Shown in pieces: positions 28,351 to 40,458 of a DNA stretch of 64,000 nt. The position numbers were made by a program, and so were the translations under genes. Under the pieces are notes generated by a model that worked only from the letters and a program-made list of their open reading frames with translations, was not told the origin of the DNA and ran no database searches. The DNA comes from Zhongshania aquatica (GTDB taxonomy: Bacteria > Pseudomonadota > Gammaproteobacteria > Pseudomonadales > Spongiibacteraceae), in assembly GCF_027257955.1 (NCBI RefSeq), contig NZ_JANZNQ010000002.1, positions 124,001-188,000 on the forward strand, read 5' to 3'. Each line of letters starts with the position of its first letter. Within the stretch, counting starts at the first letter, position 1.

Positions 28351-29463
28351 TTACGGTCGCATTTCCTCATAAAGACTTACAATTTTAGATGATATTTTTC
28401 CTAAGCTCAGAATTTCATCAACAGCGCCGACCGCAACAGCAGCGCCAGGCATACCCCAGACTATCGACGATGCTTCGTCCTGCACAAGGGTTCTCGCCCC
28501 CGCTTCATGCATCGCTTTCAATCCCTCGGCACCATCTTTTCCCATACCGGTCAAAATAACGCCGACAGCATTTTTGCCCACATACTTTGCCACCGAATGG
28601 AACAATACATCCACCGAAGGACGATGCCGATTCACCGGATCGTGGTCACTCAGCACGCAGTAATAACGGGCACCATCACGCCGTAAACTCAAATGAAAAT
28701 CACCTGGTGCTATATATGCATGCCCATGCAAAACTCGCTGGCCGTCGACCGCCTCACACACGGTCATCGCACTGCACTTATTCATCCGCTCAGCAAATGG
28801 ACCACTAAACATCCCTGGAATGTGCTGAACAATAACCGTTCCCGGTGTATCAATAGGCAAACGTTCGAGCACTTCTCGAATAGCTTCTGTTCCCCCCGTT
28901 GATGCGCCAATGGCAATAATCTGATCTGTGGTTTTAAAGTTCAAATTACTGTTCGTAGTCACAATCCCCCCTGGTGAGATATAGGATTCACGAGAGTGTC
29001 GACTATTGCTTTCAACTAACTTTGAGACTGTTGCGTACCTAGCGATCTTTACTTTCTCGATTATCTCGCTAGCATATTCTTTTAGTTTGCTGGCGATATC
29101 TATTTCTGGTTTGCTAACAAAATCTACCGCACCTAATTCTAATGCCTCTAGTGTAACCGAGGCATTTTTCTGTGTAAGCGACGACACCATTACTACTGGC
29201 ATTGGTCGCAAGCGCATTAAATTACGCAGAAATTGCAAGCCATCCATCTTAGGCATCTCAACATCCAGAGTGAGAACATCTGGGTTAAGCAGCTTGATTT
29301 TTTCGCGCGCTATGAATGGGTCTGACGCGACGCCAACAACTTCAATATCGGGGTCAGAACTCAAAATTTCTGACAAAACATGGCGCATGAGCGCCGAGTC
29401 ATCAATGACCAAGACCTTAATTCGCGGTTTAGCACCATCAGCAAGCGTAACGGGATTCAGCAT
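28351..29463 (-). CDS. cheB: Chemoreceptor methylesterase CheB
   Basis: Receiver domain (phospho-acceptor Asp67 in LTLDVEMPKMDG) joined to a methylesterase domain. The catalytic triad regions are IGASTGGTEA (Ser), IVQHIPGMFS (His) and MGKDGAEGL (Asp). It removes methyl groups from receptor glutamates and can deamidate glutamines. ATG 29463 is preferred to an upstream frame extension because GGAGG lies six bases before it. It follows the MCP by 126 bp and works against CheR at 33 kb. Confidence 0.95.
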   Translation of the reverse strand: MLNPVTLADGAKPRIKVLVIDDSALMRHVLSEILSSDPDIEVVGVASDPFIAREKIKLLNPDVLTLDVEMPKMDGLQFLRNLMRLRPMPVVMVSSLTQKNASVTLEALELGAVDFVSKPEIDIASKLKEYASEIIEKVKIARYATVSKLVESNSRHSRESYISPGGIVTTNSNLNFKTTDQIIAIGASTGGTEAIREVLERLPIDTPGTVIVQHIPGMFSGPFAERMNKCSAMTVCEAVDGQRVLHGHAYIAPGDFHLSLRRDGARYYCVLSDHDPVNRHRPSVDVLFHSVAKYVGKNAVGVILTGMGKDGAEGLKAMHEAGARTLVQDEASSIVWGMPGAAVAVGAVDEILSLGKISSKIVSLYEEMRP

Positions 29464-29588
29464 AAAGCCTCCAGAATACCCAGAACACACATAAGGACTG
29501 TCAGATTATTTATAATTTATGCGTATTCAGAAAGGGAAGAAGCAGCGCGAAATTTCTGTGTGATATTCACGCTGCAATACCTCTACAA

Positions 29589-32500
29589 TTAGAACTCTTC
29601 CCAGTCATCGCTATGATCATTACTTGCCATCTTCCGGACTGGCAGCTTGGTTGGTGTTGGTTTCGAGCGAGGAACGATTCGATGAACATCACCACCACGA
29701 GACTCAGTAGGCTTCGGCGTTAGCGTAGCCTTGGTAGAGACTGAGGCAACATCGTTAGCCGATGTACGGAAATAAGTCATCTGATCACTCAGCCCACGCG
29801 ACAAGGAATCCATGGATTGACTGGCCGCTGCCGCCTGCTCAACCAAAGCGGCATTCTCCTGGGTTACCTTGTCCATTTCAGCAATAGCTTTATTAACCTG
29901 TTCAATACCTGACGCCTGTTCTTGGCTAGCCAAGGCTATTTCAGCAATGATGTCCGACACCTTCTTCACGCTACTCACGATTTCACCAAGTGTAGCCCCA
30001 GATTCATCAATGAGCTTAGTTCCCTCGTCCACTTTTTCTACACTATCTTTGATTAGTGTTTTTATTTCTTTAGCAGCCTGAGCGCTGCGTTGCGCCAGAT
30101 TACGCACCTCAGAGGCTACTACCGCGAAACCTCGGCCCTGCTCGCCTGCGCGCGCAGCTTCAACAGCCGCATTTAGCGCGAGCAAGTTAGTCTGGAATGC
30201 TATTTCGTCTATAACGCCAATAATGTCTGAAATGCGTTTAGACGAAGAGTTTATCTCTCTCATCGCACCTACTGCTCGGCCCACGACCTCGCCACCTTTT
30301 TCAGCTTGGCCTCTTGCGCTCGCTGCAAGAGTATTAGCTTGGGATGCATTTTCGGCATTTTGCTTAACGGTTGCGGTGAATTCCTCTACGCTCGATGCGG
30401 TTTCTTCTAATGACGCTGCTTGCGCCTCAGTCCGATTTGAAAGGTCTAAGTTACCCTGCGCGATTTCTGATGCGGAACTTTGAATACCTGTTGCCGCTTC
30501 TCGAATCTGCGTAACCATATCTCTCAGATTGTTTACAGAAAGATTTAAAGCATCTTGCATTGTGGCAAATTCACCGTGATATTCACCATTCATAACCTGA
30601 ATCAAATCACCTTCAGACAATGCAGCCATTACACGTGAACTTTCAGTTAGAGGTGCAGAAATAGCATCCATCAATCGGTTTAAACCTGCAGCTAAGCGGC
30701 TTAAGAAACCGACTGTATCTTTGTCGTTTATTCGACTATCCAATTTGCCAGCTATCGCACTGTCCAACAAACCGCTAATTTGATTTTCAGCATTGCTTTG
30801 CTCACTAACAATAGCGTCCATAAGCCCATTTACCGAAACACTCAAACGGCGCATAAAGCCTTGGTAACGCTCTGCATTCAAGCGCTGACCTAACTCTCCC
30901 TTGGACGCGGACTCTATCAAGGACGCAATCTGACGTTCAGCATCCTTTTGTTCAGTAATATCCTTCCACTCAACCATATTACCCATATATTCGCCGTTTG
31001 CTCCGAGTATCGCGGTCGCATTTACCTCGAACTCAAGGTCGGCAATTTTTATTTCGGCTCTAGCGGGTAGGTCGCTAACATTGGCCAACAAACCACGCTG
31101 ATGGCCGGGGTGCTTGTGGAATTGATCGATGGACTGCCCTACTAAATTCTCGACAGAGAACGAGGGGAATCGAGCGCGCAATACGTCTTCACGATTTCGA
31201 AGCATTTCAATAACAGCAGGATTTGCATAGGTAATATTCAAATCCGCGTCGCACATCATTAAGTTGGCTTCAGCGCCATTCACGGCTGACTGTAAGCAGG
31301 CGATTTCGATTTCCTTAGCACGCTGCTCTGTTACATCAAGCCATTCAAGTGTGTTGCCGATATAGTTACCGACTTTGTCGACTTGAGCGGTAACATTTAT
31401 ATTGAATATAAGATGACCAACATTGATATCAACCGAGTGCGGTAGATTAGACGGATCACTTAACATGCCGCGCTGGTGAGCTGGATTCTTGTGGAAAATA
31501 TCAATGCAAGTGCCAACAATATTATCGACGTCGAAGCCTGGATAGACTGCGGCCATTGCATCACGATGGCGGCCTAATAGAGTGCTAGTTGACTCATTAA
31601 CATAGGTAACAATTAGATCACGATCGACCATCATAATCGCCGTCATAGCGCTGCCTACGGCGGTTTGCAATCTCGCCACTTCGGTCTCTTTAGCGCGAAC
31701 CTCGGTTACATCAAGCCATTCAAGTGTATTGCCAATGTAAGAGCCATCTGCACCTATCTGAGAGGTAACATTAATATTAAAAATAAGGTTTCCCACATGG
31801 ATATCTGCTGAATGTGGAAGGTTCGCTGGGTCGCTTAGCATACCGCGTTGATGAGCCGGGTTTTTATGGAAAATATCTATACAGGTGCCGACAATGTTTT
31901 CAACATCAAAACCCGGATATACTTCACGAAGCTCATCGCTGTAACCTGCCAATAATTTGCGGGTTGCATCGTTAACGTAGGTTACTACCAAATCGCGATC
32001 GATCATCATGATCGCTGTCATTGCTCTATCGACTGCAGTCTGAAGCCGCACAACTCGCTCTTCCTTTGCGTGCTGTTCGGTTACGTCATGCCACTCCAGT
32101 ATGCTGCCGACGTGTACACCGGCCTCATCAATATTGGCGGTAACATTAATATTGAGTACCAATTCGCCAACAGAGATTTCTAGAGACCGAGCAGACACCG
32201 TAGGATCACTCAACTGCTGCGGTTTGTATGACGGATCGGCAGAAAAAACGTGATCAACACATAATCCGTTTAAGTTACCTGCGTCAAACCGCGAGTAAAT
32301 AGATGAGAAAACCTTAGAATGCTTCTCTAACAGAGTAATAGCAGCGTTATTCGCGTAAGTTACAATGCGATTTTTATCCACCATCATAATCGGAGTCATA
32401 ACCCCTGCGACAGTCAACCGCAATTGACTTAACTCTTTTTTCAATGCGTCAAGCTCTAACTTAGAAGATGACGATCGCGGTGCCACCTTCGCTTTAGCAG

Positions 32501-32609
32501 GAGCTCTCGCCTTGGTCGATGCTTTTGTCGCGCTTGGTGCTTTCGCTTTTGGAGTCGCCGCTCTAGAAACTACGCGCCCCTTTGTATTTGTCTTTATTTT
32601 CGCTTCCAT
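29589..32609 (-). CDS. Soluble four-PAS methyl-accepting chemotaxis protein
   Basis: A 1006-residue receptor without membrane segments. Residues 1-50 are a Lys/Ala/Pro/Thr-rich basic tail (for example [17 protein letters not shown]). Four PAS units of ~125 residues follow (about 62-187, 188-312, 313-437, 438-562), the middle two nearly identical. HAMP-like or linker units cover about 565-720. The signalling hairpin is unmistakable: [21 protein letters not shown] and [17 protein letters not shown]. The protein ends in DWEEF, which fits the x-aromatic-x-x-aromatic CheR/CheB tethering pentapeptide (NWETF in E. coli). AGGAGAT precedes ATG 32609. It presumably senses a cytoplasmic cue and drives the CheA encoded at 38-40 kb. 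Confidence 0.92.
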
Positions 32610-32675: not shown

Positions 32676-33530
32676 CTAAATTTTTTCGTATATGGTTCTG
32701 CCAATTAAGCGATAGGACTCGCAAACCCCTGCGAGGTTTTCCGAATGACCAATCATCAACTTCCCCCCCTTACTCTGATTTTTTGAAAATCGATCAAACA
32801 GTGTTCTCTGCACATCCTTACTAAAGTAAATAACAACATTACGACAAAATATAATGTCGAATGATGTCTTTATCGGCCATTGACCCAAAAGATTTAGCTG
32901 ACGATAGGTGATCATTTCTCTCACTTTTGGATGAATCATGACAAAGCCTGAATTTTCGCCCTTACCCCGCTTAATCCAAGGATTAACAATCGAATCGTTG
33001 GCGTTATCAAAACGCTCATCAGAATATATACCTCGAGATGCGGTAGCCAAAATTGCAGTATCTAAGTCGGTTGCCAATATCTTGACATCTGCAGTTTCTA
33101 TACCCTGTACGCCGTGAAGTAGAGACATCGCCATAGAATAAGGCTCTTCGCCGCTAGAACAACCAGCCGACCAGATGCGAACTGATTTTTTAATCTTTAT
33201 CAACCGCGACACTTCATTCACCAAAAACTCGAAATGGTGATTTTCTCTAAAAAAGCTCGTGAAATTAGTTGTTATTGCACTGATAAAAAATGGCAGCTCC
33301 GATTCGTCGCCGGAGCTGATAATATCAATGTAGTCATTAAAGTCAGTTATACCTAAAGCGCGTAATCGCTTAGAGTAGCGACTGTACGTCAGCTGCTTTT
33401 TTTCATCACCTAAAGTAATGCCAGTGTGCTCGAAGACTAAGCCCTTCAACTTTTCAAAGTGCTCATTTTGAAAAGGAAATTCGAATCTTTGATCTGCTAG
33501 GTCTGCGCTAGTATTCAATTTATAGCCCAC
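32676..33530 (-). CDS. cheR: Chemoreceptor methyltransferase CheR
   Basis: An S-adenosylmethionine-dependent methyltransferase of 284 residues. The N-terminal helical domain includes YSRYSKRLRALGITDF. The catalytic domain has RIWSAGCSSGEEPYSMA for cofactor binding and FDIIFCRNVVIYFSK. It methylates glutamates in the adjacent receptor, whose C-terminal DWEEF should dock on the CheR beta-subdomain. The start is uncertain: GTG 33530 has no clear Shine-Dalgarno, and TTG about 12 bases later sits behind AGGTGG. Confidence 0.93.
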   Translation of the reverse strand: MGYKLNTSADLADQRFEFPFQNEHFEKLKGLVFEHTGITLGDEKKQLTYSRYSKRLRALGITDFNDYIDIISSGDESELPFFISAITTNFTSFFRENHHFEFLVNEVSRLIKIKKSVRIWSAGCSSGEEPYSMAMSLLHGVQGIETADVKILATDLDTAILATASRGIYSDERFDNANDSIVNPWIKRGKGENSGFVMIHPKVREMITYRQLNLLGQWPIKTSFDIIFCRNVVIYFSKDVQRTLFDRFSKNQSKGGKLMIGHSENLAGVCESYRLIGRTIYEKI

Positions 33531-33582: not shown

Positions 33583-33981
33583 TTAGGCTATTGGACTCTT
33601 AACAGCGCCAGAAAGAAGCGAGTTCGATCTACACGTATTGATCCTCAAAATACATAGCGCGCCAATTAACATCAGTCCGCCACCCACAACCTTGAAGTAC
33701 ACACCGTGGCTGGCGAATCCAAGCGAAGCTGATCCCATAATCGCCATCGAAAGCAAGGAAACTATCTTCGTTTTACAGTTAACACATCGCTGGCTCTCCC
33801 AGCGCTCAATACAGGGGCCAAAAAATCTATTGCTTAGCAACCAGCGGTGCCAACGCGCTGATGACTTAGAAAAACATCCGGCGGCAAGCAAAATAAATGG
33901 CGTTGTCGGCAACAGAGGCAGAACTGCACCAATTAAACCTAATGCAATAAACATGAATCCTAAAGCTGTGTAAAATCGCAT
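33583..33981 (-). CDS. DUF454 (YbaN-like) inner membrane protein
   Basis: A 132-residue protein with an N-terminal helix pair (FMFIALGLIGAVLPLLPTTPFILLAAGCF), the diagnostic segment KSSARWHRWLLSNRFFGPCIERWES, and two further C-terminal membrane helices. The PLLPTTPF motif is the hallmark of DUF454. The function is unknown. It sits inside the chemosensory cluster between the CheC/CheX-like gene and cheR, with no known link to chemotaxis; co-transcription may be incidental. Confidence 0.85.
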   Translation of the reverse strand: MRFYTALGFMFIALGLIGAVLPLLPTTPFILLAAGCFSKSSARWHRWLLSNRFFGPCIERWESQRCVNCKTKIVSLLSMAIMGSASLGFASHGVYFKVVGGGLMLIGALCILRINTCRSNSLLSGAVKSPIA

Positions 33982-34014: not shown

Positions 34015-34482
34015 CTAAATAATGCTAAATAGCATTTTTCCGAAGCCGTACCGAGGTATTTTTAGTTTGAACCCGACAGTCGTTCTAGGAGTAAAACCAT
34101 CTGATACTGCTGACGCTTCAGCTGGCCTAAAGACCTTATCCAGTTTTATGTGTGTAGATGAGTCGGACATGAGCAGCCGCGAACACACATTGATAACTTC
34201 ATAAAAGTTATCAACCGAGGTCTTAGTGAAGTCCCCACTTTTTATCATGTCTTCTGCGCCACCAGCCGGCATCATTGAAAGCGCCGCGCCTGAATAGGCA
34301 ACAAAGGCAGGATCACATGCACATAAGGCAACAAGTTCGCCATCATCGTTTATAAAATTAGCAACAAAAGCACCATCAATTTTCTTATCTGGTATCTCCG
34401 AAGTATCGATGTCGCTACCGTATAGCATCGATAACATGTCAGAAACACTTTCGCCGTTTGGTACAATCAGCCGATTCGTCAT
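34015..34482 (-). CDS. CheC/CheX-like protein next to cheY, candidate CheY-P phosphatase
   Basis: A 155-residue protein I do not recognise by overall sequence. Residues 91-98 read DNFYEVIN, and Pro120 follows, giving D-x3-E-x2-N-x21-P. As I recall it, the active-site signature of the CheC/CheX/FliY phosphatases is [DS]-x3-E-x2-N-x22-P, so all key residues are present with one residue difference in the last spacing. The gene follows cheY directly. ATG 34482 is chosen: TTG 34497 abuts the cheY stop, and GGGG lies eight bases before the ATG. The terminal IPRYGFGKMLFSII is unexplained. Phosphatase function is an inference from motif and context. Confidence 0.6.
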   Translation of the reverse strand: MTNRLIVPNGESVSDMLSMLYGSDIDTSEIPDKKIDGAFVANFINDDGELVALCACDPAFVAYSGAALSMMPAGGAEDMIKSGDFTKTSVDNFYEVINVCSRLLMSDSSTHIKLDKVFRPAEASAVSDGFTPRTTVGFKLKIPRYGFGKMLFSII

Positions 34483-34497: not shown

Positions 34498-34857
34498 TTA
34501 CATTATTGCTGTTAGAACTTTTTCGAAGGATTCAACTGAAAATGGCTTGGATATTAAAAACTTGGCACCGCCTGCTGATGCTTTTGCGCGCATTTCTGCT
34601 GTTGCCTCAGTGGTAATAAATCCAAACTTTGTTTTAATACCTTCCTCGTTCATCGCTTCAAGCAATTCGATTCCAGTCATATTAGGCATATTCCAATCTG
34701 CCAAGATTAAATCTGGAACTTTATTCTTTATCGATTCAAGCGCCACAACGCCGTCTTCTGCCTGGGAAATATCGTTGCCGCCGAACCCAGCTTGCCGTAA
34801 TGTACGTATTATCATGTTACGCATAGCAGTGCTGTCATCAACAACCATAATATTCAT
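34498..34857 (-). CDS. cheY: CheY response regulator
   Basis: A stand-alone receiver of 119 residues. The acidic pocket is VVDDST (Asp7, Asp8), the phospho-acceptor is Asp54 in LILADWNMPNMTG, the switch Thr is in GFITTEAT and the conserved Lys is in ISKPF. The DWNMPNMTGIELL region is very close to flagellar CheY proteins. It heads the second half of the chemosensory cluster, followed at once by the CheC/CheX-like gene, and is divergent from the HDOD gene. Confidence 0.92.
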   Translation of the reverse strand: MNIMVVDDSTAMRNMIIRTLRQAGFGGNDISQAEDGVVALESIKNKVPDLILADWNMPNMTGIELLEAMNEEGIKTKFGFITTEATAEMRAKASAGGAKFLISKPFSVESFEKVLTAIM

Positions 34858-35037: not shown

Positions 35038-35889
35038 ATGCCTAATGCGCAGCAACTGGTAGCGGATACCACCTCATTAATATCTTTTCCCGACGTAGCC
35101 ATCGCTTTAAATAATGCGCTGAGCAAGGGTGACAATTCCGCTAAAGAAGTTACCGACATAATTGAACGCGACCCAGCGCTTACTGCCGCTGTATTGCGAA
35201 TCTCAAACAGTGCCGCCCTAAATACCGGCGTAGAGATAAACACTGTCTCACGAGCTGTTTCGCGCCTTGGATATCGTCAAATCAACGAACTCGTTATGGG
35301 AATTGAGGTAGCTCGCTCATTTAACGCGCTAACAAATGATCTGATTAGCATTGAGGATTTTTGGAAGCACAGCCTACTTTGTGCAACGATCGCTAAACGG
35401 ATTGCAAAGCAATGTAAAGGCATAGACGCCGGCGCCGCCTTCACTGCAGGACTGTTACATGATATCGGACAGCTAATTATATTTAGCCGTCTTGAGGAAG
35501 AATCTGAAGAGTTTCTTTCTAAATCCATTTCAGAATTCGACGGTCTCACGACGTATCTTTGCGAAAAAGAAGTTCTCGGCTACGACCACACCAACGTAGG
35601 CCTTGAACTAGCTATGAAATGGAAGCTACCTCGGTCACTACAGGAGTGCTTGTATGCGCACCATGAACCTAACAAAATAGTCCCAACCCCGGACTTAGTT
35701 ATGCTCATTCATATAGCAAATAGTCTAGCTGTACTCGCTGAGCTTGAAAGCGATAAATTAGAAGACGGCCCGGCAATAATGGATAGTGCATGGGATCAAT
35801 TAAAATTGGATAAAAGTCGAATTTTCGATATTCTAGACGGCGCGCAAGACGAGGTTGGCGACTTGCTCAAAATATTTATCAGCAAATAA
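35038..35889 (+). CDS. HDOD-domain protein
   Basis: A 283-residue protein consisting of a single HDOD domain (about residues 15-210; SNSAALNTGVEINTVSRAVSRLGYRQI, LLHDIGQLIIFSRL, YDHTNVGLELAMKWKLP) plus a helical C-terminal region. HDOD proteins are relatives of HD phosphohydrolases and generally act as signalling scaffolds. In this one the H-D pair is retained in LLHDIGQ, but the full metal site was not checked. It is the only plus-strand gene within the chemosensory cluster, inserted between cheD and cheY, and such genes do recur near chemosensory loci. Confidence 0.85.
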   Translation: MPNAQQLVADTTSLISFPDVAIALNNALSKGDNSAKEVTDIIERDPALTAAVLRISNSAALNTGVEINTVSRAVSRLGYRQINELVMGIEVARSFNALTNDLISIEDFWKHSLLCATIAKRIAKQCKGIDAGAAFTAGLLHDIGQLIIFSRLEEESEEFLSKSISEFDGLTTYLCEKEVLGYDHTNVGLELAMKWKLPRSLQECLYAHHEPNKIVPTPDLVMLIHIANSLAVLAELESDKLEDGPAIMDSAWDQLKLDKSRIFDILDGAQDEVGDLLKIFISK

Positions 35890-35971: not shown

Positions 35972-36583
35972 TTAATCAAATAGCTCTATATCGCTGCTTA
36001 CTGGCTTGTCGTGTAGTTTACGCTCGTAAACTTCTTCTTCATGAATAACCATATTCGCGTGCAGGGACCTAAGTCTCTTAACAAGAACACGCCCAGTCGT
36101 TGGGAAGTAATTTATTTTTCTAGAGAACTCAAGCCCGACATCTTCGGCAACGATTGCTATTCGCTCTAATTCAAGAAAGCTGCGAACAAAAGAAATATTC
36201 TTACCGCCTACATCACTAAGCCCCCTCATCATCCTGCCGCCACCGAAGATTTTAACCTCCAAGTTTTCCCTCCGTCCGCCGACCTTAAGTATGTCGTTGA
36301 TGAGATGTTCCATCGCATAAGCCCCATACCGCGCGGCCATACCATCCATTTTGGTATCCCCCTCTGGCAGCATAAAGTGATTCATCCCACCTAACTTAAG
36401 CACCCGCTCTCGAATGCACGCGGAGATACATGAGCCAAGTACCGTGGTAATCATTTCATCTTCACGATCAGAGACATAGTATTGCCCAGGCAATACTCGG
36501 GCCGCATAGACCGCATGCGCACCATCCCAGTGTTTCTGTATTTCGGGATACTTCGCATTCACTTGTGTCTGAGTATGCGGCAC
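35972..36583 (-). CDS. cheD: Chemoreceptor glutamine deamidase CheD
   Basis: A 203-residue CheD protein. The catalytic Cys is in TTVLGSCISACIRE, the His in LGGMNHFMLP, and the substrate-site segment is KIFGGGRMM, with GGKNISFVRSFLE downstream. CheD deamidates receptor glutamines; in Bacillus it also binds CheC and stimulates it, which is notable because a CheC/CheX-like protein is encoded 1.5 kb downstream. The start is GTG 36583 behind AAGGAAA. It lies 12 bp after the CheZ-like gene. Confidence 0.93.
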   Translation of the reverse strand: MPHTQTQVNAKYPEIQKHWDGAHAVYAARVLPGQYYVSDREDEMITTVLGSCISACIRERVLKLGGMNHFMLPEGDTKMDGMAARYGAYAMEHLINDILKVGGRRENLEVKIFGGGRMMRGLSDVGGKNISFVRSFLELERIAIVAEDVGLEFSRKINYFPTTGRVLVKRLRSLHANMVIHEEEVYERKLHDKPVSSDIELFD

Positions 36584-36595
36584 TAATTTATTTCC

Positions 36596-37033
36596 TTAGA
36601 ATAGCTCAGATGTAGAGCACGACGTATCGTCATCAAAACCAAGATGAACGTTTAGCTCTTGGGAAGAGGAGTATAAATCTGCAATTTTTGCAGATAACTT
36701 CACGCTCAACTCATTATTCAGCTCTGTAGGAATTTCATTCTCAATGAGCTCAAGTGCGCTTTGAACGTGGGTTAATTTCTGCGAGAGAAGATCAAAGCAT
36801 TGCATATGCACAACGATTTCATTCAATGCATGCTCCATTTTTTCGGCAGATGACGCATCAATAAGGCCAGCTTTAGTTAGGTAGACCAGTTGGTCATCAA
36901 GTTTGACGAAATAAGACATCATTCCGCTTATATCCACGGCAGCTTCAGCAACCGCAGCCTCAACTTGCTTCGAAATAACACCTAGCAGCGGTTTTTCTAA
37001 CTGTCCATTATTCTTAATTTTAACCACGCCCAT
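36596..37033 (-). CDS. Helical protein with a CheZ-like D-x3-Q motif
   Basis: A 145-residue, mostly alpha-helical protein counted from ATG 37033, which has GGGGGAAG seven bases upstream; a frame extension to 37057 overlaps the preceding gene. Residues 77-85 read MQCFDLLSQ, placing Asp81 and Gln85 in the D-x3-Q spacing of the CheZ catalytic helix (QDLTGQ in E. coli), within a predicted long amphipathic helix. Length is shorter than classical CheZ (~214) but like remote CheZ homologues. CheZ normally ends in a CheY-binding peptide; here the C terminus is DDDTSCSTSELF. Its place between STAS and cheD supports a chemosensory role. The function is inferred. Confidence 0.55.
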   Translation of the reverse strand: MGVVKIKNNGQLEKPLLGVISKQVEAAVAEAAVDISGMMSYFVKLDDQLVYLTKAGLIDASSAEKMEHALNEIVVHMQCFDLLSQKLTHVQSALELIENEIPTELNNELSVKLSAKIADLYSSSQELNVHLGFDDDTSCSTSELF

Positions 37034-37043
37034 AGTCTTCCCC

Positions 37044-37469
37044 CTAAAGGGACTCAACCAATGAGTCTAATTTTAAATACTTCGTATAATCTAAATGCTT
37101 TGCTAGGTCGCAAAAATACAACGAAGGCTGATACCAATCTACATCACGCCCATTACGCTCTGAATGTTGGACAAAGGATGACAATAACTGCAGAACGGCC
37201 GTGTCGGAATCTGAAACAGCGGACGCATCCAGTATAATGCGACTACCTGCACTGGCGTCTAATTCGGCAAGATCTTGGTACAAGGCCATTACTGTATCAA
37301 TCGTAGATGCCTCCGAAAGTTTTAAACTGATACTGTCGGCTTGAGCATCTGAGCCACCACTATCGTCTTGGCTACCATCGAGCAGATAGACAAACTCATC
37401 CGCTTTCGGACTCACATTCGCCGAGGTCGGTTCATCAAGTAAAATCACAAATTCACTGGAGTCAGCCAT
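37044..37469 (-). CDS. STAS-domain protein of the chemosensory cluster
   Basis: A 141-residue protein. The C-terminal ~90 residues fit a STAS domain: SRIILDASAVSDSDTAVLQLLSSFV is the strand-loop-helix that in anti-sigma antagonists carries the regulatory residue. The first ~45 residues are acidic and Asp/Ser-rich with a repeated FV[IY]LLD element (residues 7-12 and 26-31), perhaps a tether. AAAGGGG precedes ATG 37469. Small STAS genes between cheW and cheD-type genes occur in several chemosensory loci, with unclear roles. Confidence 0.75.
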   Translation of the reverse strand: MADSSEFVILLDEPTSANVSPKADEFVYLLDGSQDDSGGSDAQADSISLKLSEASTIDTVMALYQDLAELDASAGSRIILDASAVSDSDTAVLQLLSSFVQHSERNGRDVDWYQPSLYFCDLAKHLDYTKYLKLDSLVESL

Positions 37470-37505: not shown

Positions 37506-38012
37506 TCACGCAGCTGCGACGGCGGCGACTTCTTTAATCGTCAGTAGTTTGTCTATATCGAGTAAAATTAGCATTTTATCGTCCACAGTGGACAAACCTT
37601 TGATGAAGTCTGCACGTACCGAACCACCAAAGTCTGGCATTGCCTGCACCGTTTGTTCGTCCACGCGATAGACCTCTGACACAGCATCTACGACCATGCC
37701 AATGGTACGTCCCTTGTCAGTGCTTTCAACCCGAACAACGATAATGACGGTTGTCGGTCCAAATTCGATCGAGTCCATATCAAAGCGTTTTCGCAAATCT
37801 ATAATAGGCACAATCGCGCCACGTAAATTCATTACACCCAAGACATAGCGCGGTGAACTTGGAATCGGCGTGACGGTGTCCCAACCTTGGATGCCCTGCA
37901 CCCTTAAAATTTCAACGCCGTATTCTTCACCATTGAGCATAAACGTAAGATACTGATTTGTATCTGCGTGCAACATGTCTGAAGGCGACAACTGTAGGGC
38001 CTCATTGCTCAT
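37506..38012 (-). CDS. cheW: Coupling protein CheW
   Basis: A 168-residue CheW. It has the two-lobed SH3-like fold segments YLTFMLNGEEYGVEILRVQGIQG, YVLGVMNLRGAIVPIIDLRKRF and GMVVDAVSEVYRVDEQTVQAMP. It connects the receptor tip to the CheA P5 domain. It follows cheA by 21 bp and precedes the STAS gene by 36 bp, in one operon. Confidence 0.95.
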   Translation of the reverse strand: MSNEALQLSPSDMLHADTNQYLTFMLNGEEYGVEILRVQGIQGWDTVTPIPSSPRYVLGVMNLRGAIVPIIDLRKRFDMDSIEFGPTTVIIVVRVESTDKGRTIGMVVDAVSEVYRVDEQTVQAMPDFGGSVRADFIKGLSTVDDKMLILLDIDKLLTIKEVAAVAAA

Positions 38013-38033: not shown

Positions 38034-40082
38034 TCAAGCCGCACTTGACTGCGGTGTCTTTTCCAACTGGCGCATATCCATACTATGTACTAACCCAGGT
38101 ACGTCGATTATCAAGGCGACATTCCCATCACCAAGAATGGTTGCTCCCGCAAGTCCCTTAACTGGCAAGTAATTTTCCTCAAGACTTTTTATAACGACCT
38201 GTTGTTGCTCCAACAACTCATCGACGAACAAGCCCATTTTCTTACCGTCACTTTCAACCACAACTAGAAGCTCGCCTTTTTTCTCCTCTGACTCACTAAA
38301 CAGTGACTCAGACGCCATATCAAATGCTTCACGAAGACGAATCACCGGAATATAGTCTTCACGTAAGCGATAGACATTACCCGTGCCAACGACCTTACTA
38401 ATTTGTCCTTTTGATACAAGCACGGTCTCAACTATAGATAGCAACGAGAAGATATAGACTTGATCGCCAACGCGAACCAACTGTCCATCGAGTATCGCCA
38501 ACGTAAGCGGAAGGCGAATTTTTAACGTCGAACCTTTGCCCAGTGTTGACTGGAGATCAACTCTACCCCCCAAATCCATGATATTTCGGCGCACCACATC
38601 CATACCTACACCGCGACCGGAAAGATCACTAACCTTATCTGCGGTAGAGAATCCTGGTTGAAATATAAGATTATTAATTTGATCATCTGAGAGCACTTCA
38701 CCAGGTGCGACAATACCTCGCTCTATCGCTTTTTCCAGTATCTTCTTCTGATTAAGACCAGCGCCATCATCGCTAACCTTGATAACTATATTTCCACCTT
38801 CGTGATACGCGCTTAGATGCAATATTCCCGTTTCCGGCTTCCCAGCCGCAATACGGTCGGCGGGCATTTCTATACCGTGATCCAACGAATTTCTAACCAA
38901 ATGCACAAGCGGATCACTCATTTTCTCAAGAACAGTTTTATCTAGTTCTGTGTTCTCACCCGACAATTGCAACTCGACTTTTTTGCCGAGCTTAGTACTC
39001 ATGTCACGCACCAACCGTTTAAACCGGCTAAAGCTTGCCCCTATAGGCAACATACGAATTTGCATCGCGCTTTCTTGCAACTCTCGCGTATGCCTCTCAA
39101 GAACAAGCAGTCCGTCGCGTAAACCCTGTGTATCATTACCTCCGGTGTCACGATCACCAAAGCGCGCAAGCATCGATTGAGTAATGACTAGCTCACCGAC
39201 TAGATTTAAAAGCATATCTATTTTATCAATACTAACTCTAATAGATCCGCTATCTTTAGGTGCTGACTGGGTTGCAAGCTGCTTCGGCGCAGCTACCTTA
39301 GTTTCCGATACGCTGGCGGATTCAGAAATAGGCACCACAATGTGCTCCGCCATAACTTCCAGCGCCTCGATTCTAACTTCGCTTTGATTACTGACCCACT
39401 CGAATACTTCTAGGATTGCATCTTTTTCTACCTCACCTCGCAACTCTATATCCCAACAGGTATAACACGACTCGGGATCCATGCTTTCGAAGTCAGCGTC
39501 TTTAGACAAGGTCGAAATGACTGATATTTCACCCATTGACGCCAATTCACGCAGAAGACGCTTGGGCTCATTCCCGGTCTTGAAAATATTACCGTCGGGC
39601 GCGTAGTGAATCTTCCACGCCTTCAATGCCCCAGATGAAGATTGCGTCACTTTCTTTACGTCAACGGGCGCTTTAACGGCCGCAGTTTCGTTATTGAGAA
39701 GCGCATCTATTCTGCGCTGCACCGAATCTATATTCGCCTTATCAGCCTCACTTTGTTGCTGGGCTGCATTGAGCATATCTCGAATACAATCGACAGAAGC
39801 CAACAAAACTTCAATGACTTCTTCCGTCGCATCTCGCTGGCTAGAGCGCATCTGGTCTAGAATAGTTTCCACACCATGGGTAAAACCAGAAATGTCTAAA
39901 AAGCCAAATGTCGCAGCACCTCCTTTCATGGAGTGCGCGGCCCGGAATATATTGTTAATGGTTTCAATATCGGTGGTTTCTGGGGTCAGATTTAATAGAC
40001 CCGACTCCATCACATCAACACCTTCCGCGCTTTCCTCAAAGAAAATTGCGTGAATTTCTGCCATGTCTAGATCAAGCGACAT
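38034..40082 (-). CDS. cheA: Chemotaxis histidine kinase CheA
   Basis: A 682-residue CheA with the domains in normal order: P1 Hpt (phospho-His50 in FRAAHSMKGGAATFG), a region resembling a second regulatory or P2 segment (about 150-250), P3 dimerisation (SIRVSIDKIDMLLNLVGELVI), P4 kinase (HLVRNSLDHGIEMPADR, DDGAGLNQKKI, SGRGVGMDVV) and P5 CheW-like (LVRVGDQVYIFSL to the end). GGGGAG precedes ATG 40082. The cheY-like gene ends 1 bp before it, so the two are coupled. Confidence 0.96.
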   Translation of the reverse strand: MSLDLDMAEIHAIFFEESAEGVDVMESGLLNLTPETTDIETINNIFRAAHSMKGGAATFGFLDISGFTHGVETILDQMRSSQRDATEEVIEVLLASVDCIRDMLNAAQQQSEADKANIDSVQRRIDALLNNETAAVKAPVDVKKVTQSSSGALKAWKIHYAPDGNIFKTGNEPKRLLRELASMGEISVISTLSKDADFESMDPESCYTCWDIELRGEVEKDAILEVFEWVSNQSEVRIEALEVMAEHIVVPISESASVSETKVAAPKQLATQSAPKDSGSIRVSIDKIDMLLNLVGELVITQSMLARFGDRDTGGNDTQGLRDGLLVLERHTRELQESAMQIRMLPIGASFSRFKRLVRDMSTKLGKKVELQLSGENTELDKTVLEKMSDPLVHLVRNSLDHGIEMPADRIAAGKPETGILHLSAYHEGGNIVIKVSDDGAGLNQKKILEKAIERGIVAPGEVLSDDQINNLIFQPGFSTADKVSDLSGRGVGMDVVRRNIMDLGGRVDLQSTLGKGSTLKIRLPLTLAILDGQLVRVGDQVYIFSLLSIVETVLVSKGQISKVVGTGNVYRLREDYIPVIRLREAFDMASESLFSESEEKKGELLVVVESDGKKMGLFVDELLEQQQVVIKSLEENYLPVKGLAGATILGDGNVALIIDVPGLVHSMDMRQLEKTPQSSAA

Positions 40083-40083
40083 A

Positions 40084-40458
40084 TCACTCCCCTTTTGGCT
40101 CTAACACACGATCAAGGATCCGCAACAGTGCCTCAGCGTCGAATGGCTTGACTATCCATCCCGTCGCACCAGCCTCTTTGCCGCGCATTTTCATGTCAGA
40201 AGCTGACTCGGTGGTCAACATTAGAATCGGTGTAAATCGATAGGAAGGCAAACGCCTTAACTCTGAGGTTAGAGTAATGCCATCCATATTTGGCATATGG
40301 ACATCAGTAAGAACAACGTCTACCCCATTCTCTTTCGCAAAAGACAAAGCATCCGTACCATCTTCTACAGAATGGACTTCATGCCCTGCTTTACGCAAAG
40401 TCATAGACACCAATTGGCGCATGGAAGGTGAATCATCAACGGCTAGTATGCTGGCCAT
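40084..40458 (-). CDS. Single-domain response regulator (CheY-like)
   Basis: A 124-residue receiver with AVDDSPSMRQLV, phospho-acceptor Asp52 in LTDVHMPNMDGI, switch Thr in LMLTTES and Lys in WIVKPFD. It is distinct from the cheY at 34.5 kb and closer to the PilG/CheY type found immediately before cheA in non-flagellar clusters. It heads the cheA operon. Whether it is the output regulator or a phosphate sink cannot be told. Confidence 0.9.
   Translation of the reverse strand: MASILAVDDSPSMRQLVSMTLRKAGHEVHSVEDGTDALSFAKENGVDVVLTDVHMPNMDGITLTSELRRLPSYRFTPILMLTTESASDMKMRGKEAGATGWIVKPFDAEALLRILDRVLEPKGE

Follow-up and report, generated by a model that had tools for sequence, protein, structure and literature searches.

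How is CheY switched off in a bacterium whose genome holds no Pfam-recognisable CheZ, CheC or CheX? The question is raised by a chemotaxis gene cluster of Zhongshania aquatica located in a stretch of 64,000 nucleotides (contig NZ_JANZNQ010000002.1, positions 124,001 to 188,000; this whole stretch is called the window below). Two small proteins of the cluster are concrete candidates: a 155-residue protein encoded next to cheY, here called X, and a second one, called Zlike. The evidence makes it likely that X, with its CheC/CheX/FliY/FliM fold, is a single-site phosphatase of phosphorylated CheY (CheY-P) that serves specifically the CheY of the gene immediately upstream. The features concerned, in positions of the window, are:

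34015..34482, minus strand: X, a 155-residue protein with an ATG start and a predicted CheC/CheX/FliM fold, putative CheY-P phosphatase (open reading frame and fold prediction)
34171..34224, minus strand: codons for helix 87-104 of X with the putative catalytic pair (predicted secondary structure, arithmetic)
34198..34200, minus strand: E95 codon of X (E in 31/31 stand-alone members)
34189..34191, minus strand: N98 codon of X (N in 30/31 stand-alone members)
34498..34857, minus strand: cheY, 119 residues, likely substrate of X (Response_reg, E 1e-22; 15 bases upstream of the ATG of X)

The structural model of X, a confident prediction, has the CheC/CheX/FliY/FliM alpha/beta fold across the whole domain, and other folds gave no comparable match. 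A first-pass annotation of this DNA had proposed a CheC/CheX-type fold too diverged to be recognised from sequence, and had tied the proposal to E95 and N98 being exposed on a helix; the model has that fold and puts both residues in predicted helix 87-104, where a helical wheel suggests that they face the polar side. Every direct sequence route from X to CheX was without success, whether through Pfam, NCBIfam, PDB sequences or hhalign. A Pfam search with X gave zero matches at E values up to 10: the cut-off of PF13690 (CheX) was not reached, no match to PF02154 or PF01052 was found for X, and none to PF04509 (CheC) for X or the 27 members compared with Pfam. Taken together these 27 matched 11 families, and CheX was not one of them. 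NCBIfam returned one row (E 0.064, far under its cut-off) and the PDB sequence search rows at E 0.63 and 0.79. By its predicted fold X belongs to the CheC/CheX/FliY/FliM superfamily, outside CheX, CheC and FliM as their models define them, and it probably represents a new and far-diverged branch of the CheC/CheX enzyme group.

The translation of X contains, as the first-pass annotation had read it, D91-x3-E95-x2-N98 and then P120, past N98 by a spacer of 21 residues. The motif [DS]x3Ex2N was found in 21/721 control open reading frames (ORFs), or about 0.02 per 155 residues, these controls being unlabelled six-frame ORFs of 120-400 residues taken mechanically from the fetched regions, many of them not genes. 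With a proline at 21 or 22 residues the count was 0/721, and at 20-24 residues 4/721. The full pattern is thus uncommon, yet no proof by itself.

The relatives compared comprise 31 stand-alone X proteins (12 from the own genus), five proteins that combine an X-like domain with CBS domains (X-CBS), and four receiver-X fusions. Among the stand-alone proteins, with identities to X down to 24-27%, E95 is kept in 31/31 and both N98 and N92 in 30/31. Position 91 is D in 13, E in 9, A in 6, G in 2 and Y in 1, and position 120 is proline in 8. Of the full active-site signature claimed earlier, the E/N pair stands, while D91 and P120, poorly conserved as they are, carry little weight, and P120 was dropped as a family feature. 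What marks the stand-alone proteins in the alignment is N-x2-E-x2-N. N92 is also kept in three of the four fusions and replaced by glycine in all five X-CBS proteins; its role may lie in the fold or in binding, not in the chemistry. A second conserved E-x2-N was not seen, by eye, in the X alignments.

A cheY-like receiver gene is located directly upstream on the same strand in 29/31 stand-alone cases (gap -58 to 73 bases), and all 29 of these proteins (12 from the genus, 17 from elsewhere) keep the E/N pair. The same holds for the X-CBS proteins (5/5), so that E-x2-N is intact in 34/34 members with a neighbouring cheY, rows that are not independent of each other. Of the two stand-alone proteins without an adjoining cheY, L124 has N98G and L136 keeps the pair; tblastn with the CheY of the window gave zero matches in both regions. 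Two weak partial matches, L144 and L145 (genomes G951 and G286; ORF-set E 4.7e-5 and 3.2e-4), were left out before the 31 were counted as they are not established members; they lack the pair and a nearby cheY, and would, if counted, be two further unlinked rows without it.

How, then, can the pair be connected to that of CheX? The five X-CBS proteins (L146-L150), also encoded right after cheY, came from a phylum-level search with the X profile. Profiles of X and X-CBS match at E 1e-7 and 4e-8, seven controls reaching 0.058 or worse, and EVxN of X aligns with E(V/I)xN in the X-CBS rows. All five of the latter touch Pfam CheX (E 0.00076-0.025, each below its cut-off), and their profile matches CheX with E 0.0016 and probability 16 (controls 0.14 or worse); a smaller comparison (E 0.027, probability 2) paired the E and the N of the two groups with each other. 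The X-CBS intermediate forms a bridge of which the first step is strong and the second weak; this chain, itself a weak one, suggests that the E-x2-N pair of X, on the active-site helix, corresponds to the CheX pair. The CheX set consisted of 11 aligned rows out of 31 PF13690 matches, cut-off rows and more divergent ones being left out, and its invariant columns partly reflect that choice. In these 11, D at -4 and P after the helix are invariant; the spacer in the first row is 21, the same as in X, but in the profile alignments P120 does not fall clearly on the CheX proline.

Passages of one paper (PMC3035606) describe that CheX and CheZ both insert amide and acidic side chains into the receiver active site. 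If X acts as CheX does, its helix 87-104 would dock on phosphorylated CheY, N98 would position a water molecule to attack the aspartyl phosphate and E95 would form a salt bridge with the active-site lysine of CheY. The action of X would end the signal of its chemosensory operon.

Several observations weigh against X being a dedicated CheY-P phosphatase. The activity is putative, and the first-pass annotation had rightly treated it so. The folds nearest to X are those of FliM middle domains (Z 11.8-14.0, vs 9.2-10.8 for CheX), which are not phosphatases, and fold alone is no proof of activity. The signature residue at -4 and the proline are not kept across the family. Direct comparison of 27 X members with the 11 CheX rows by hhalign was not significant (E 0.26), a further comparison gave E 0.1, within the control range, and X plus X-CBS rows reached E 0.053, hardly beating the best control (0.086). 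The step from X-CBS to CheX stays below the Pfam cut-off and at probability 2 in the smaller comparison. L136 retains E and N with no neighbouring cheY. In two genomes, G910 and G589, a Pfam CheX gene adjoins cheY and X or X-CBS, so that X cannot be taken as a plain substitute for CheX.

The FliM-like structure suits a protein that binds CheY-P without hydrolysing it, as adaptor, sink or output domain, with phosphatase activity residing in Zlike (D-x3-Q in 15/15 relatives) or in CheA and CheY themselves. The receiver-X fusions, in which the domain persists with both E and N lost in 4/4, indicate that the fold can serve without catalysis. X, however, has no FliN-like C-terminal domain (155 residues, PF01052 unmatched), and the pair is kept in every cheY-linked member despite the low identities; pure binding is therefore judged unlikely. 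A CheC-like partnership with CheD, in which X would tune receptor deamidation and phosphatase activity would be secondary, is very improbable: X has a single E-x2-N vs two in CheC, and among the 25 stand-alone clusters that show cheA, 7 keep cheY-X although no cheD was seen (by eye, within the sequence around each cluster; cheD may be located beyond it). The first-pass annotation had correctly placed cheY next to X and cheD 1.5 kb off, but its use of cheD as a link to CheC loses force beside the 29/31 with cheY next door, and a CheC role argued from cheD linkage was set aside. That X is some small protein of other descent whose E-x2-N arose by chance would agree with the insignificant direct comparison with CheX and with the 21 motif-bearing control ORFs; the fold match without a comparable rival, the sequence bridge and the cheY linkage make such an accident scarcely credible.

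The four receiver-X fusions (L126, L127, L128 and L164) carry R/K, R/K, S/S and L/D in place of E95/N98, and their receiver domains are recognised by Pfam. In a tree that holds three of them (without L164), with long branches on the fusions and the X-CBS rows, the three cluster at 91/78, not starred, so that their loss of E and N may have been one event. The gene that follows in L127 and the divergent neighbouring gene of L128 both seem, by eye, to encode membrane-anchored proteins. The catalytic loss in the fusions offers a natural test of a change from phosphatase to binding domain.

The remaining genes of the cluster are ordered cheY2-cheA-cheW-STAS-Zlike-cheD-(HDOD, opposite strand)-cheY-X-DUF454-cheR-mcp-cheB:

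40084..40458, minus strand: second cheY-like receiver, 124 residues, upstream of cheA
38034..40082, minus strand: cheA with Hpt, dimer, HATPase and CheW domains
37506..38012, minus strand: cheW
37044..37469, minus strand: STAS-domain protein
36596..37057, minus strand: Zlike, 145-153 residues (ATG 37033 or TTG 37057), possible second CheY-P phosphatase
35972..36583, minus strand: cheD
35038-35889, plus strand: HDOD-domain gene between cheD and cheY, there in 11/12 genus members with X, by eye
33583..33981, minus strand: DUF454 protein, encoded between X and cheR; 9/12 genus members with X have this label at that place, by eye
32676..33530, minus strand: cheR
29589..32609, minus strand: chemoreceptor with repeated PAS, HAMP_2 and MCPsignal domains
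28351..29490, minus strand: cheB

Zlike, small and fast-evolving, has a CheZ-type D-x3-Q (D81/Q85 counted from the ATG) and ends in ELF. Q-x2-D-x3-Q-[RK] is present in 15/15 relatives, five of which were chosen for their place between STAS and cheD or cheR and not for sequence similarity; eight end in LF, six of these in ELF. Its model (pLDDT 74.5) is a helical hairpin of two long helices with a low-confidence tail. The Zlike of the window matched no Pfam family, CheZ was not among 25 of 32 families listed for 13 Zlike proteins, and Foldseek had no CheZ among 50 of 95 rows listed, the best E being 0.64. With no significant match to any fold among those rows, structural proof of Zlike as a CheZ failed; from its motif it is a possible CheZ-like CheY-P phosphatase.

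A wider reading, offered tentatively and held to be rather less probable than its opposite, joins these threads. X would add another branch to the E-x2-N CheY-P phosphatases, next to CheC/FliY and CheX; the operon would serve its two CheYs with phosphatases of two unrelated types, namely X and the CheZ-like protein; and in the fusions a disarmed phosphatase domain would have become a response-regulator output domain, an enzyme turned reader of its former substrate. For CheZ beside a possible CheX homologue in one genome, passages of a paper on Campylobacterota give a precedent (PMC9321776). G910 has a Pfam CheX gene before cheY-X and G589 the order cheY-CheX-cheY-X-CBS, as though every CheY might be served by a phosphatase of its own. 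In L142 (5069-6478) and L146, Pfam CheX, cheY and X or X-CBS are adjacent on one strand, both phosphatase-like types flanking one or two CheYs (the CheX of L146 was also read as L080 287-793). CBS domains are often nucleotide-binding, and those of L146-L150 might tune CheY-P decay. In G451 the strand of X continues with fliL, fliM, fliP, Bac_export_1 (FliR-type) and flhB, with unscanned ORFs between, which ties cheY-X to flagella there.

X was found by protein search in 12/21 genomes of the host family, every one in its own genus; the relative in Zhongshania aquimaris is 75% identical. Profile searches gave 13/244 and 19/390 genomes of the order, 13/274 and 18/369 of the class (the latter at E up to 0.01, two doubtful) and 9/398 of the phylum, draws that overlap and all count the own genome. 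The family is thus of low frequency in the class (18/369). No description of it was found in the open-licence PMC literature, as far as the texts there extend and with most subscription papers outside that scope. Profile-based chemotaxis inventories can miss a branch of the CheC/CheX/FliY/FliM superfamily. Two FliM matches are located in the own genome (G000:C14:67731-68306 and G000:C74:54209-54787); two per genome occur in 20/21 family genomes, a second rotor or secretion switch protein.

Zlike resembles CheZ in its D-x3-Q, two predicted long helices and a low-confidence tail; the LF/ELF ends among its relatives are somewhat like the tail of CheZ. In passages of PMC7750401, D-x3-Q is the active motif of CheZ; the phenylalanine before D is one residue nearer in Zlike than in the AXXFQ-D motif given there. 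Compared with CheX (PF13690; T. maritima 1xko, B. burgdorferi 3hzh), X has no Pfam or significant direct profile match, and its family lacks the conserved -4 residue and proline, N at -3 being conserved in stand-alone X instead. CheC has two E-x2-N sites and FliY a flagellar C-terminal domain (2f9z, 1xkr, 3qta, 4hyn), whereas X is one 155-residue domain with a single E-x2-N. FliM, a component of the rotor, lacks the catalytic pair and is extended at its N and C termini; X, in contrast to the FliM middle domain, is free-standing and carries that pair.
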